Positions 52,799 through 58,767 of a stretch of 64,000 nt of DNA are shown in pieces. The DNA is taken from assembly GCA_003250355.1 (NCBI GenBank), contig QKGS01000079.1, forward strand, positions 79,092 to 143,091, read 5' to 3'. Under the pieces are notes generated by a model. It was not told where the DNA came from. It was given only the letters and a program-made list of their open reading frames with translations, and made no database searches. Source of the DNA: Bacteroidota bacterium (GTDB lineage Bacteria > Bacteroidota > Bacteroidia > Bacteroidales > SZUA-534). Position 1 is the first letter of the stretch. Every line of letters starts with the position of its first letter. The position numbers and the translations under genes were made by a program.

Positions 52799-53182
52799 AT
52801 GACTAGCATATACGAACTGGCAGGCACTAAAAAAACACCCTATATTAAATTCGACAAAAATATAGGGACGCTAGAAATTAAAGGTTGTTCACTACACTCC
52901 GATGCAGTAGGCTTTTATGACGACCTGAAACTACATATTGAAGAGTACATTAAAAACCCGGCCAATGTAACACAACTCAACTTTCAAATTGAATATATGA
53001 ACACCAGTTCGTCGAAAGTTGTATTTATGATAATTACCATGTTTGAAAAAATACATGATATGGGTAAAAACATTGAATTTAACTGGTATGTTGAAGAAGA
53101 TGACCCCGATATGCTTGAAATAGGTAATGAATATAGAAAAAGCTTAAAATTCAATACTAACGTTATTGAAATATCATTGTAA
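52799..53182 (+). CDS. SiaC family regulatory phosphoprotein (DUF1987), second copy
   Basis: IEYMNTSSSKVVFMIITMFE and WYVEEDDPDMLEIGNEYR; paralogous to 4894..5271. Confidence 0.83.
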   Translation: MTSIYELAGTKKTPYIKFDKNIGTLEIKGCSLHSDAVGFYDDLKLHIEEYIKNPANVTQLNFQIEYMNTSSSKVVFMIITMFEKIHDMGKNIEFNWYVEEDDPDMLEIGNEYRKSLKFNTNVIEISL

Positions 53183-53238: not shown

Positions 53239-53246
53239 TATTTTTG
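53239..53246 (+). promoter_or_regulatory. Putative -7 element (TATTTTTG) of the thr leader transcript
   Basis: Match to TAnnTTTG, 8 nt before the leader ATG at 53255. Confidence 0.5.
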
Positions 53247-53254
53247 CTGTCGTT

Positions 53255-53353
53255 ATGATGAAACACAGCAAAATATTCAGAAATTATTCTTTAATAAAAG
53301 CATCTGCTTCAGTTGCCAATACTGCTGTTTTCACAACAACCACAACCCCCTAG
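53255..53353 (+). CDS. Candidate threonine-operon leader peptide (32 aa): MMKHSKIFRNYSLIKASASVANTAVFTTTTTP*
   Basis: Short ORF ending in five consecutive Thr codons (ACA ACA ACC ACA ACC) then CCC TAG, 158 nt upstream of thrA; absent from the supplied ORF track because of size. Confidence 0.75.
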   Translation: MMKHSKIFRNYSLIKASASVANTAVFTTTTTP

Positions 53354-53388
53354 GGGGGATTAATTATATATTTCAGCCACAGTTGTGA
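53331..53388 (+). promoter_or_regulatory. Candidate attenuator/antiterminator region of thr leader
   Basis: CCCCCTAGGGGG palindrome spanning the leader stop codon, and TCACAAC (53331..53337, in the Thr-codon run) complementary to GTTGTGA (53382..53388); no clear poly-T terminator. Confidence 0.4.
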
Positions 53389-53511
53389 TTACGACTTCTT
53401 ATCGACAAAAAAATAGAGTAACACTTCATATAATGGTAAATTCCATTTGCTTTATTTTATCGCAACAAATTCACATACCTTTTTATCAATTAATTACTAA
53501 ACTTTGAAAAA

Positions 53512-55959
53512 ATGAAAATAATAAAGTTTGGAGGTACTTCGGTTGCCAATGCTCAAAGAATAGAACAAATAGCTAATATTATTAGCAACTATTATAAAAA
53601 CGACAAACTGGTTATAGTAGTATCAGCACTATCGGGTGTTACAAACCTATTAGAAAAATGCGGCAACGATGCTTTAACAGGTGCAAATGCATATACCATT
53701 TCACTGAAAGAGATTGAAGAAAAGCATTTTGAAATAATATCAAAACTGGTAGAAGCAAAAAACAGGAGCGAAATAGCTGCAAAAATCAAAATGCTCTGCA
53801 ACGAAGCCGAAGATATTTGCAATGGCATATCAATATTAGGCGAATATTCGGCACGTTCAAAGGCTAAACTTTTAAGTTTGGGTGAGCTTATGTCGTCGAA
53901 CCTTATAAGTTGTGCACTTAACCACCTTGGCCATGATAACATTTGGCTCGACTCTCGCAATATAATTAAAACCGACAACACATACACATCGGCCAAAGTT
54001 GATTACACTACATCGGAAATAAACGCAAAAAAAGCATTTGAAAATATTACACGTATTACGCTAATGCCCGGTTTTATTGCAAGCAATGCAATAAACGAAA
54101 CCACTACACTTGGCCGTGGAGGAAGCGACTTTACCGCTGCATTAATTGCCAATTTCATTAATGCTGAAAGAGTTGACATCTGGACCGATGTAAATGGTAT
54201 GCTTACAGCATCGCCAAAAATTGTATCATCGGCTTATACTATTCCGTCAATATCGTACGAGGAAGCAATGGAACTTTCACATTTTGGTGCAAAAGTTATA
54301 TATCCGCCTACTATTCAGCCGGCAATGGAAAAACGAATACCTATTATGATAAAAAACTCTTTTGACCCTGAACATACAGGAACACTTATATCCGAAACAT
54401 CAGAGGCCGATGGTTCAAACATAAAGGGATTTTCATCGATTGATAATATTTCGCTTATAAACATTTCGGGCAGTGGCATGATAGGCATTCCCGGTTTTGC
54501 TATGAGAACCTTCAAAGCTTTAAGCGAAGCCGATATTAATGTTTATTTAATTACACAATCATCGTCGGAGCATACCATAAGCGTAGGTATTGCAAGCTGC
54601 GATGCTAATTCGGCAGTTCAAAAACTCAATGAAGAATTTGAAATAGAAATAAGCCGCCACAAGGTAAATAAGGCAACTTCCGAAAATAACCTTTCAATAG
54701 TTGCAATAGTTGGCGATAAAATGAAACATTCGGTTGGCATATCGGGCAGAGCATTCAAATTACTTGGCGACAACGGAATAAACGTTCGTGCAATAGCTCA
54801 AGGGGGAACAGAAAGAAACATATCGGTGGTTATTTCTGAAAAAGACACTAAAAAAGCTCTTAATGCTTTACACGATGGATTCTTCTTATCGAAATACCGC
54901 AAGGTTCACTTGTTTGCAATAGGTTTAGGTACTGTTGGTGGCACTATGCTCGACCAACTAAATGAGCAATTTGAATATTTACGCAACGAATACTCATTAG
55001 AAATACGTTTGGCAGGTATAGCCAACTCACGCAAAATGCTTTTCAATGAAGACGGAATAAATTTGGCTACATTCCGCAACGATTTGGAAAACAGTGACAT
55101 TAAAATGGATTTGGGTAAATTTGTAGAAACAGTTAAAGAGATGAATTTACGTAACAGTATTTTCATGGATAATACAGCCTCGGCCGATATAGCTGAGATA
55201 TACAAGCCCATGGTTGAATTAAAAATACCGGTAGTTGCAAGTAATAAAATAATGGCATCGTCGCCATTAGAAAAATACATTGCCTTTAAGCAAGCTGCAA
55301 AAAAGAACAATGTAATGTTTCTTAACGAAACCAACGTAGCTGCGGGGCTTCCTGTTCTAAAAACTATTGAAGACCTGGTTGCATCGGGCGATAAAATCAC
55401 AAAAATACAAGCAGTACTTTCAGGTAGTTTGAACTATATATTCAATAATATAAGTGAAACTGTGTCATTCTCTGAAGCTGTGATAAAAGCGCGTGAATTG
55501 GGATTAACCGAGCCTGATCCGTCAATAGACCTTAGCGGGCTTGATGTTCGGAGAAAAATACTAATTCTTGCACGTACTTCGGGTTATAATATTGAGTTAA
55601 ATGAAGTAGACAAAAACGATATAGTTCCCGAAAAAGAACTACAAGCAACCAATTTCGATGAACTATTGAAAAATTTGGAAGCCAACAACGCTCAAATTGA
55701 AAATATAAGAAAAGATGCTCATAACAGTGGCAAAAAACTTCGCTATGTTGCAGAATACAATAACGGCAAAGCTGTAACCGGCTTGCAGGCAGTTGATTCT
55801 ACTCACCCGGCATATAACCTCGACGGAATGGATAACATTATACTGTTATACACACGACGATATAGCGAACAACCACTTGTAGTTAAAGGTGCAGGTGCCG
55901 GACCGGGAGTAACAGCATCAGGAGTTTTTGCCGATGTAATGCGACTAGCTAATAATTAA
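53512..55959 (+). CDS. thrA: Bifunctional aspartokinase / homoserine dehydrogenase
   Basis: MKIIKFGGTSVANAQRI, TTTLGRGGSDFTAAL, two ACT regions, HSD GLGTVGGTMLDQL and GLTEPDPSIDLSGLDVRRKILILAR. Confidence 0.95.
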   Translation: MKIIKFGGTSVANAQRIEQIANIISNYYKNDKLVIVVSALSGVTNLLEKCGNDALTGANAYTISLKEIEEKHFEIISKLVEAKNRSEIAAKIKMLCNEAEDICNGISILGEYSARSKAKLLSLGELMSSNLISCALNHLGHDNIWLDSRNIIKTDNTYTSAKVDYTTSEINAKKAFENITRITLMPGFIASNAINETTTLGRGGSDFTAALIANFINAERVDIWTDVNGMLTASPKIVSSAYTIPSISYEEAMELSHFGAKVIYPPTIQPAMEKRIPIMIKNSFDPEHTGTLISETSEADGSNIKGFSSIDNISLINISGSGMIGIPGFAMRTFKALSEADINVYLITQSSSEHTISVGIASCDANSAVQKLNEEFEIEISRHKVNKATSENNLSIVAIVGDKMKHSVGISGRAFKLLGDNGINVRAIAQGGTERNISVVISEKDTKKALNALHDGFFLSKYRKVHLFAIGLGTVGGTMLDQLNEQFEYLRNEYSLEIRLAGIANSRKMLFNEDGINLATFRNDLENSDIKMDLGKFVETVKEMNLRNSIFMDNTASADIAEIYKPMVELKIPVVASNKIMASSPLEKYIAFKQAAKKNNVMFLNETNVAAGLPVLKTIEDLVASGDKITKIQAVLSGSLNYIFNNISETVSFSEAVIKARELGLTEPDPSIDLSGLDVRRKILILARTSGYNIELNEVDKNDIVPEKELQATNFDELLKNLEANNAQIENIRKDAHNSGKKLRYVAEYNNGKAVTGLQAVDSTHPAYNLDGMDNIILLYTRRYSEQPLVVKGAGAGPGVTASGVFADVMRLANN

Positions 55960-56021: not shown

Positions 56022-56951
56022 ATGTTGACTAAAGTTAAAGCTTTTGCGCCGGCGAGCGTTGCAAACGTTTCGTGCGGATTCGATATACTCGGTTTTCCTA
56101 TTGATAATATAGGCGACACAATAGAAATAGAACGCAACAATACCGGAAAAATAACTATTAACCCCATAAAGGGACCCGGAACACTATCAACCGACCCCGA
56201 TAAAAACGTATGTGGTGTAATAGCAAAAGCAATGCTTAAAGACTTAGGTAAAAGCGATGGTATTGTTATAAGCTTAACAAAAGGAATACTACCCGGCAGC
56301 GGACTTGGCAGCAGTGCTGCAAGTTCGGCAGTTACTGCATTTGCCGTTAATGCATTATATGGCAACCCCTTCGATGGCAAGAAACTTGTTGAGTATGCTA
56401 TGCTTGGCGAAGAACTGGCATCGGGAACAAAACATGCCGACAATGTTGCTCCGGCTACACTGGGCGGTTTTATTGCAATACGCAGCTACGACCCTTTTGA
56501 CTTAATTAACATTCCTGTACCTGAAAACTTATATTGTGCAGTAATACACCCAATGGTTGAAGTGCGCACTGAGCTTTCGCGAAATGTACTTAAAAAAAAT
56601 GTTCCACTAAAAACAGCTATTAAACAATGGGGTAATGTGGCAGGGCTAATAGCCGGCTTATTTAGCTCCGATTATAATTTAATTGGTCGCTCACTGGAAG
56701 ACCATATAGTTGAACCGGTTCGTTCATTACTCATTTCAGGATATGCCGAAATAAGAGAAGCAGCAAAAAATGCAGGAGCTTTAGGTGGTGGAATATCGGG
56801 TTCGGGACCTTCTATATTCAACCTTTGCGAAGGCGAAGAATCGGCTAAAGCAGTAGCTAATGCTATGGCAAAAGCCGCCGATGAACTTAAACTGCCTTAT
56901 GAAGTTCATGTTTCAAAAATATCGACCACCGGCTGCCGATTTGTTGAATAA
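56022..56951 (+). CDS. thrB: Homoserine kinase
   Basis: GHMP kinase motif LPGSGLGSSAASSAVTAFAVN; AFAPASVANVSCGFDILGFP. Confidence 0.95.
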   Translation: MLTKVKAFAPASVANVSCGFDILGFPIDNIGDTIEIERNNTGKITINPIKGPGTLSTDPDKNVCGVIAKAMLKDLGKSDGIVISLTKGILPGSGLGSSAASSAVTAFAVNALYGNPFDGKKLVEYAMLGEELASGTKHADNVAPATLGGFIAIRSYDPFDLINIPVPENLYCAVIHPMVEVRTELSRNVLKKNVPLKTAIKQWGNVAGLIAGLFSSDYNLIGRSLEDHIVEPVRSLLISGYAEIREAAKNAGALGGGISGSGPSIFNLCEGEESAKAVANAMAKAADELKLPYEVHVSKISTTGCRFVE

Positions 56952-57474: not shown

Positions 57475-58767
57475 ATGAAATTCTACTCTATTAAAGATAA
57501 AAGCCATAAGGTATCGTTTAAGCAAGCTATAATAAATGGCTTGGCTCCAAACTTCGGCCTTTATTTTCCGGAAGAAATACCACAATACTCAAAAGAGTTC
57601 TTTGATGGTATAAAAAATATGACTTTACCACAACTTGCTGAGCACGTATTATATCCATATGTTTCGGAAGACATTAATAAAGAGACACTTAAAACCATAT
57701 GCGAAGATGTATTCAGTTTTGAAATTCCGTTAGTTGAAGTAGAAAAAGGAATTTACTCGTTAGAGTTATTTCATGGACCAACTTTGGCTTTTAAAGATGT
57801 AGGAGCTCGTTTCCTTGCCAAGAGTTTACAATACTTAAACAAAGATGCAAAAATACGTGTTCTGGTTGCAACTTCGGGCGATACCGGCAGTGCTGTTGCC
57901 AATGGTTTTTTAGGTGTTGAAGGAACCGATGTTGTAGTACTATATCCTAAAGGAAAAGTAAGTGAGCTTCAACGCAAGCAATTTACAACTTTGGGTCAAA
58001 ATATTATCCCTATTGCAATAGACGGCACTTTCGACGATTGCCAGCGTTTGGTAAAACAAGCTTTTGCCGATACTGAAATGAAAGCTGCACAAAACCTTAC
58101 ATCTGCCAACTCAATTAATATTGCCCGCTGGATACCACAATCGGTTTACTATTACTGGGCAGTAGCTCAAGCTAAAAAAATATCTAAAACCAAGAAAATA
58201 ATAATCTCTGTGCCAAGTGGTAACTTAGGCAACATAACTTCGGGTATGCTAGGTAAAGCCACCGGCCTGCCTGTTGACAGGTTTATAGCTGTTAGCAACA
58301 AAAACGACGTGGTTCCTAAGTATATAGAATCGGGTGAATATAACCCTATTACCACTATCCAAACTATTGCAAATGCTATGGATGTTGGCGACCCAAATAA
58401 CTTTCCACGTTTGCTGGAGTTATATAACAACGACCATGCATTAATAAAAACTGAAGTGAGCGGAGCTGCATATAGCGACCAACAGATACGTGATATTATA
58501 CGCAAATGCAAAGCAAAAACAGGCTATATTCTTGACCCCCATGGAGCTACCGGATATGGCTCACTGAAAGATTTGGGTGAAACTGAAGCTATTGGCATTT
58601 TCCTTGAAACTGCTCATCCGGGTAAGTTCGTTGAAGAAGTAGAAGCTACTCTTGACGAAAAAATTGAGCTACCTGAAAAGCTGCAAGAATTTGCAAAACG
58701 GACAATTTCAACTCATGAACTATCAGCCAACTTTGATGATTTTATGAAATTTCTAAAAATTAATTAG
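57475..58767 (+). CDS. thrC: Threonine synthase
   Basis: LELFHGPTLAFKDVGARFL, VATSGDTGSAVANGFLG, SVPSGNLGNITSGMLG. Confidence 0.95.
   Translation: MKFYSIKDKSHKVSFKQAIINGLAPNFGLYFPEEIPQYSKEFFDGIKNMTLPQLAEHVLYPYVSEDINKETLKTICEDVFSFEIPLVEVEKGIYSLELFHGPTLAFKDVGARFLAKSLQYLNKDAKIRVLVATSGDTGSAVANGFLGVEGTDVVVLYPKGKVSELQRKQFTTLGQNIIPIAIDGTFDDCQRLVKQAFADTEMKAAQNLTSANSINIARWIPQSVYYYWAVAQAKKISKTKKIIISVPSGNLGNITSGMLGKATGLPVDRFIAVSNKNDVVPKYIESGEYNPITTIQTIANAMDVGDPNNFPRLLELYNNDHALIKTEVSGAAYSDQQIRDIIRKCKAKTGYILDPHGATGYGSLKDLGETEAIGIFLETAHPGKFVEEVEATLDEKIELPEKLQEFAKRTISTHELSANFDDFMKFLKIN

Follow-up and report, generated by a model that had tools for sequence, protein, structure and literature searches.

The window (the whole 64-kb stretch of DNA that was analysed) carries a threonine biosynthesis operon, thrABC, with a short open reading frame (ORF) in the region between a SiaC-family gene and thrA (Table 1). 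The peptide ends in ...FTTTTTP at a TAG stop codon (53351-53353), which is separated by 158 nt from the start of thrA at 53512. The original prediction had described a 32-codon ORF opening at ATG 53255, its five Thr codons and the 158-nt distance to thrA, and all of these coordinates were confirmed. A Bacteroidota promoter box 8 nt upstream of the ATG, which makes the ORF near-leaderless, and a palindrome over the stop codon (53346-53358) were likewise found as described; the palindrome, to which no role had been given, proved to be the decisive element.

A chance origin of the Thr run can be ruled out. The leader's own is the only run of at least five Thr codons in the six frames of the window, with 0.1 such runs per mononucleotide shuffle, and the exact 18-mer of the run occurs once in the 3.7-Mb genome; Thr enrichment recurs in upstream regions that were selected by a hairpin alone (see below). 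Between thrB and thrC, the segment 56982-57454 contains a ParE-family toxin gene (PF05016, 57152-57454), the start of which is overlapped by a 60-aa ORF that is probably the antitoxin. A look at thrABC in the two nearest relatives, L002 and L003, detected neither.

Table 1. Features of the leader region and the thrABC operon, in positions of the window
Feature	Position	Strand	Remarks
SiaC-family gene	52799-53182		Upstream neighbour of the leader region
Bacteroidota -7 promoter box TAnnTTTG (TATTTTTG)	53239..53246	+	8 nt upstream of the leader ATG
thr leader peptide ORF, MMKHSKIFRNYSLIKASASVANTAVFTTTTTP*	53255..53353	+	32 codons, near-leaderless; relatives have an ORF of this kind before thrA
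Thr control codons ACA ACA ACC ACA ACC	53333..53347	+	Five consecutive codons, at most 13 nt from the hairpin
Stop-codon hairpin CCCCC-UAG-GGGGG (CCCCCTAGGGGGG)	53346..53358	+	Loop is the stop codon 53351-53353; conserved and covarying
TATAT	53365..53369	+	Weak local form of conserved YATAT, 7 nt downstream of the hairpin; possible pause or termination point
GTTGTGA	53382..53388	+	Complementary to TCACAAC in the Thr run; such a helix would enclose the stop hairpin and is not considered functional
thrA, bifunctional aspartate kinase/homoserine dehydrogenase I	53512..55959	+	Regulated gene; NF006959, 968.5 bits (cut-off 726)
thrB, homoserine kinase	56022..56951	+	NF002288 and TIGR00191
thrC, threonine synthase	57475..58767	+	TIGR00260

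Threonine-rich leaders across Bacteroidota

Homologues of thrA were collected from public genomes, from 99 relatives and from 399 genomes sampled evenly across the phylum, and 80 further upstream regions were fetched beyond this collection. Short ORFs with Thr/Ile-rich ends lie upstream of thrA in Flavobacterium, Lutibacter, Allomuricauda, Deminuibacter, Gracilimonas and other Balneolaceae, and in the window's own family. At the family level, ORFs with Thr codons were found in Flavobacteriaceae, a Chitinophagaceae-containing family, Balneolaceae, the window's family and several others. The element is present in 43 of the 109 genomes of the broader sample, spread over seven families; counting the window's family there are eight, belonging to two classes. 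About 60% of these 109 genomes, including whole families, have no such element. One contig filed under Bifidobacterium breve (L081) carries a Flavobacteriaceae-like thrA with a leader and is probably a mis-binned metagenome contig.

For an unbiased selection, 208 distinct upstream regions were screened for ORFs of 12-60 codons that end at a hairpin, with no criterion on threonine. A strong stop hairpin was found in 122 of them. Thr makes up 53.9% of the last ten residues of the peptides selected in this way, Ile 11.4% and Pro 8.9%, as compared with 16.2% Thr in the earlier part of the peptide. For all six codons before the hairpin, entropy is higher at codon position 3 than at positions 1 and 2, so that it is the amino acid rather than the RNA sequence which is kept. 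On this comparative evidence the Thr-rich leader shows strong conservation, with selection acting on its Thr/Ile codons, which supports the suggestion that it is a functional analogue of the enteric thr attenuator. The near-leaderless start is conserved too, as 30 of 65 non-redundant leaders have a TAnnTTTG box 4-12 nt upstream of an in-frame ATG, against 7.5% after shuffling of the upstream 80 nt.

The hairpin at the leader stop codon and the CATAT element

The general anatomy of these leaders is a run of control codons leading into a hairpin of 4-9 bp, with the stop codon in the loop or an arm, or 0-6 nt past the hairpin. In the window, the hairpin is C5-UAG-G5, with a 5-bp GC stem and a predicted energy of -8.9 kcal/mol. 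Using a criterion of at least 4 bp, at least three of them GC, at the leader stop codon, we found a hairpin in 122 of 130 distinct thr leaders, in comparison with 6 of 35 his and ilv leaders and 5% of shuffled windows. Of the 65 non-redundant leaders, 53 have their stop codon inside or overlapping the hairpin, and in the other 12 it comes at most 6 nt later. The distance from the hairpin to thrA ranges from 65 to 188 nt, with a median of 85 nt.

The upstream regions of thrA in relatives keep the Thr-codon run while the stem covaries, a pattern for which the original prediction had proposed to look. Most stems read ACCCC/GGGGT, and compensatory swaps from C-G to G-C pairs, seen as ACGGG/CCCGT in L246 and L265 and as GGGT/GCCC in L251, support the hairpin at the level of sequence; L208 has the divergent stem GATCCGC/GCGGATT. 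Because MAFFT misplaces the stem when aligning so short an element, pairs were counted with the sequences anchored on the loop. The fifth pair, which is not required for detection, is formed in 63 of the 65 leaders (shuffle mean 53.9, maximum 61), a count that is supportive and not a formal test, since the shuffle ignores relatedness.

Control codons are concentrated next to this hairpin. Over the five codons that lie no more than 13 nt from it, the Thr+Ile density is 0.97, 0.95, 0.94, 0.89 and 0.80; densities of at least 0.80 are confined to this interval, and beyond 29 nt the background is 0.2-0.35. Folding of a terminator has been reported to need 10-15 nt between the ribosome A site and the hairpin (PMC4824070). 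A ribosome stalled at almost any of these codons would therefore be expected to block the hairpin.

On the other side of the hairpin, the motif YATAT occurs 7-12 nt downstream in 49 of 65 relatives, with a peak at 9-12 nt; a control window contains it in only 4 of 65. Its wider consensus is T-rich, aCATAT(a/c)AtCc. Several close relatives have no CATAT motif, and the counterpart in the window is only TATAT. In Balneolaceae (L191-L210, the Balneolia-type leaders), a second covarying hairpin, with stems GGC/GCC, AGGA/UCCU and GGGA/UCCC, follows just past CATAT; it varies between clades. A pattern search of 12 genomes for a CATAT-type element in other operons returned the thr copy and a few scattered matches near the control level. 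As to CATAT being a general pause motif, 12 of 35 his and ilv leaders have YATAT within 32 nt past the stop codon, clustered in relatives and with no GC hairpin before it. An identity of CATAT with boxA, the NusB-dependent element, was not supported, as the motif agrees poorly with the rrn boxA of its host genome by genome: several genomes have the rrn boxA GTTCTTTGACATATTGG, and in one genome of Balneolaceae the rrn boxA is GTTTTTTGAAAATTGGG and the thr motif CTACATATCG. The rRNA operons of L302, L303, L305 and L307 contain GTTCTTTGACATATTGG-like boxA candidates, which have ACATAT in common with the thr element.

Terminators of the thr, his and ilv leaders

The his and ilv operons across Bacteroidota (L152-L189) have classical attenuators, with HHHHHH and ILV-rich peptides followed by U-tract terminators; some ilvD upstream regions (L172 and L186) contain two tandem leader-like ORFs. 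We applied one detector for the classical GC hairpin with a U-run to the thr, his and ilv leaders. In the same genomes, it detected a classical U-tract terminator in 15 of 19 leaders for his and 13 of 16 for ilv, including the his (L170) and ilv (L179) leaders of the genome studied here. In contrast, any match at all was obtained in only 11 of 130 thr leaders. Six of these 11 (L242, L252, L257, L269, L274 and L288) are clearly classical: they have a strong U-tract terminator and lack the stop hairpin. With this minority of classical thr leaders, the two designs replace each other within the phylum.

No classical GC hairpin with a U-tract was found between the leader and thrA in the window. A loose terminator scan does flag the stop hairpin, because its tail is A/T-rich. 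Across the thr leaders, the 8 nt after the stop hairpin contain 3.7 T, against a background of 4.1 and 5.6 for the his and ilv terminators; the tail is not enriched in T, nor does it form the U-tract of a pyrBI-type intrinsic terminator, and any intrinsic termination at the stop hairpin is putative. The original prediction stated that the textbook GC hairpin and poly-U were both missing, which holds for the U-tract and not for the GC hairpin, as the 5-bp stem at the stop codon is present. Its expectation that the switch would differ from the textbook one agrees with the rarity of clearly classical thr leaders beside the his and ilv leaders. What comparison of the sequences shows, then, is the ORF, selection on its codons, a stop hairpin whose pairs change in a compensatory way, the distance at which CATAT follows, and the lack of a terminator with a U-tract.

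A candidate attenuator and its relation to known systems

The reading that we favor, with moderate confidence, is that the element is a leader-peptide attenuator of thrABC, of a non-classical, direct-occlusion type that would be common in Bacteroidota. The transcript would start a few nucleotides upstream of the leader ATG, and the ribosome would translate the leader into the Thr codons (Thr and Ile codons in relatives), which end at the short GC hairpin. When Thr-tRNA is scarce, the ribosome would stall within about 13 nt of the hairpin with its leading edge over the 5' arm, which would keep the hairpin unfolded and allow RNA polymerase to proceed into thrABC. When Thr-tRNA is plentiful, the ribosome would reach the stop codon and depart, the hairpin would fold, and RNA polymerase would pause and terminate about 10 nt downstream, at or near CATAT. 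The ribosome itself would thus serve as the antiterminator, as at pyrBI, with amino-acid control codons of the thr/his type. We infer that transcription ends near the hairpin, that readthrough rises upon threonine limitation, and that CATAT is the point of pausing or termination. The second hairpin of the Balneolia-type leaders has no role in the direct-occlusion model. Also counting against it are the T content of the tail, the weak TATAT of the window with the loss of the motif from several close relatives, and the large share of genomes in the broader sample that do not have the element. Timing is a weakness of the model, as a ribosome tightly coupled behind RNA polymerase could block the hairpin in either condition; the polymerase would need to pause long enough for the ribosome to finish.

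The main rival is Rho-dependent termination in the manner of tnaC, an explanation that we regard as unlikely. Here the leader would again sense threonine, and Rho would load on C-rich, G-poor RNA after the ribosome leaves the stop codon and end transcription ahead of thrA; stalling of a ribosome in the Thr run would block loading, and the pause required by Rho would be set by the stop hairpin. That the thr leaders have no U-tract would fit this, and Rho of Bacteroides has been described as an active terminator (PMC13269538). Base composition points the same way, with C exceeding G in the leader-to-hairpin stretch of 63 of 65 leaders and in the hairpin-to-thrA stretch of 45 of 65, but Thr codons, being ACN, account for the excess in the leader, and the median C/G ratio between hairpin and thrA, 1.29, is near the 1.23 of the ilv control. 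Moreover, the 65-188 nt of RNA downstream of the hairpin would stay just as exposed under a stalled ribosome.

Less probable still is a classical attenuator, in which mutually exclusive antiterminator and terminator helices form downstream of the leader and the stop hairpin acts as a pause hairpin only. The second hairpin past CATAT in the Balneolia-type leaders is what such a design might contain, and classical terminators do occur in the his and ilv leaders of the same genomes and in the six classical thr leaders. However, the leaders with a stop hairpin have no U-tract terminator, and alignments of three clades revealed no conserved helix that competes with the stop hairpin as an antiterminator would. 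The original prediction had noted that TCACAAC can pair with GTTGTGA. We rejected this pairing as a conserved switch, as the helix is found in a few close relatives only, arises trivially from ACA-ACN codons, and encloses the stop hairpin, with which it is compatible and does not compete. A very unlikely alternative is an effect of the leader on translation or on the stability of the mRNA in place of transcription, for example through reinitiation at thrA or decay via the stop-codon hairpin: an aid to reinitiation has been proposed for leader genes near structural genes (PMC4833913), but the median of 85 nt between hairpin and thrA is far from the reinitiation peak of 11-14 bp in Bacteroidetes (PMC4833913), and the choice of Thr and Ile codons points to sensing.

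Overall, the earlier interpretation of a threonine attenuator is partly supported, and direct occlusion of the stop hairpin by the ribosome is the form that we prefer. More tentatively, these leaders may represent a minimal attenuator, in which the stop codon lies in the hairpin loop, the ribosome is the sole antiterminator, and the polymerase pauses or ends at CAUAU about 10 nt further on with no U-tract. If true, this would imply a pause or termination signal that has not been described for other RNA polymerases, and the conserved CATAT at a fixed distance from the hairpin would offer a handle on pausing and termination by the Bacteroidota enzyme. With a leader that starts near the 5' end and a ribosome that would antiterminate alone, the element would also be a natural test of transcription-translation coupling in bacteria without Shine-Dalgarno-led initiation.

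Searches of Rfam gave no match for the leader at the gathering threshold, the loose matches being due to chance, and no NCBIfam or Pfam model matched the leader peptide. In the main texts of the literature searched, no description of the thr element was found. Based on the absence of both a description and a database match, we rate the thr leader as a new variation on leader-peptide attenuation. It is a candidate for the control of threonine (and isoleucine) synthesis in a major phylum, and one that neither Rfam release 15 nor the tested models of NCBIfam and Pfam include. Related observations have been made: a study of Flavobacterium psychrophilum suggests leader-peptide attenuation upstream of amino-acid operons and names pheA and hisG elements (PMC9723704), and short ORFs reminiscent of leader peptides have been noted in Bacteroides (PMC7366714).

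The enteric thr attenuator (thrL; Rfam Thr_leader) likewise has a short ORF directly upstream of thrABC that is rich in Thr codons and, as in the relatives of the window's leader, in Ile codons. Unlike thrL, the control codons here abut the hairpin that holds the stop codon, and neither a U-tract terminator nor a competing antiterminator was found. At tnaC, a ribosome near the leader stop codon controls Rho-dependent termination downstream; the control point has no U-tract, and the ribosome is stalled by free tryptophan acting via the nascent-peptide sequence and not by starved codons. The thr leaders resemble tnaC in the proposed action of a ribosome near the leader stop and in the lack of a U-tract, and differ from it in that the proposed stall is on starved codons. 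In the pyrBI operon of Escherichia coli, the terminator lies within the leader gene (pyrL), and the ribosome prevents its folding with no alternative antiterminator (PMC4824070, PMC5021804). As in pyrBI, the leader ORF of thr runs into the candidate controlling hairpin, with the stop codon in or just after it; yet at pyrBI it is UTP that is sensed, by way of polymerase pausing, and the U-tract is a true one, while the putative signal here is Thr- or Ile-tRNA and the tail is not U-rich. A further comparison is with the his and ilv leaders of Bacteroidota, which are the same kind of short ORF with control-codon runs upstream of biosynthetic operons and which, in contrast to the thr leaders, have GC hairpin and U-run terminators downstream of the stop codon. 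Being present in the same cells, these classical leaders provide a built-in control for the thr element.
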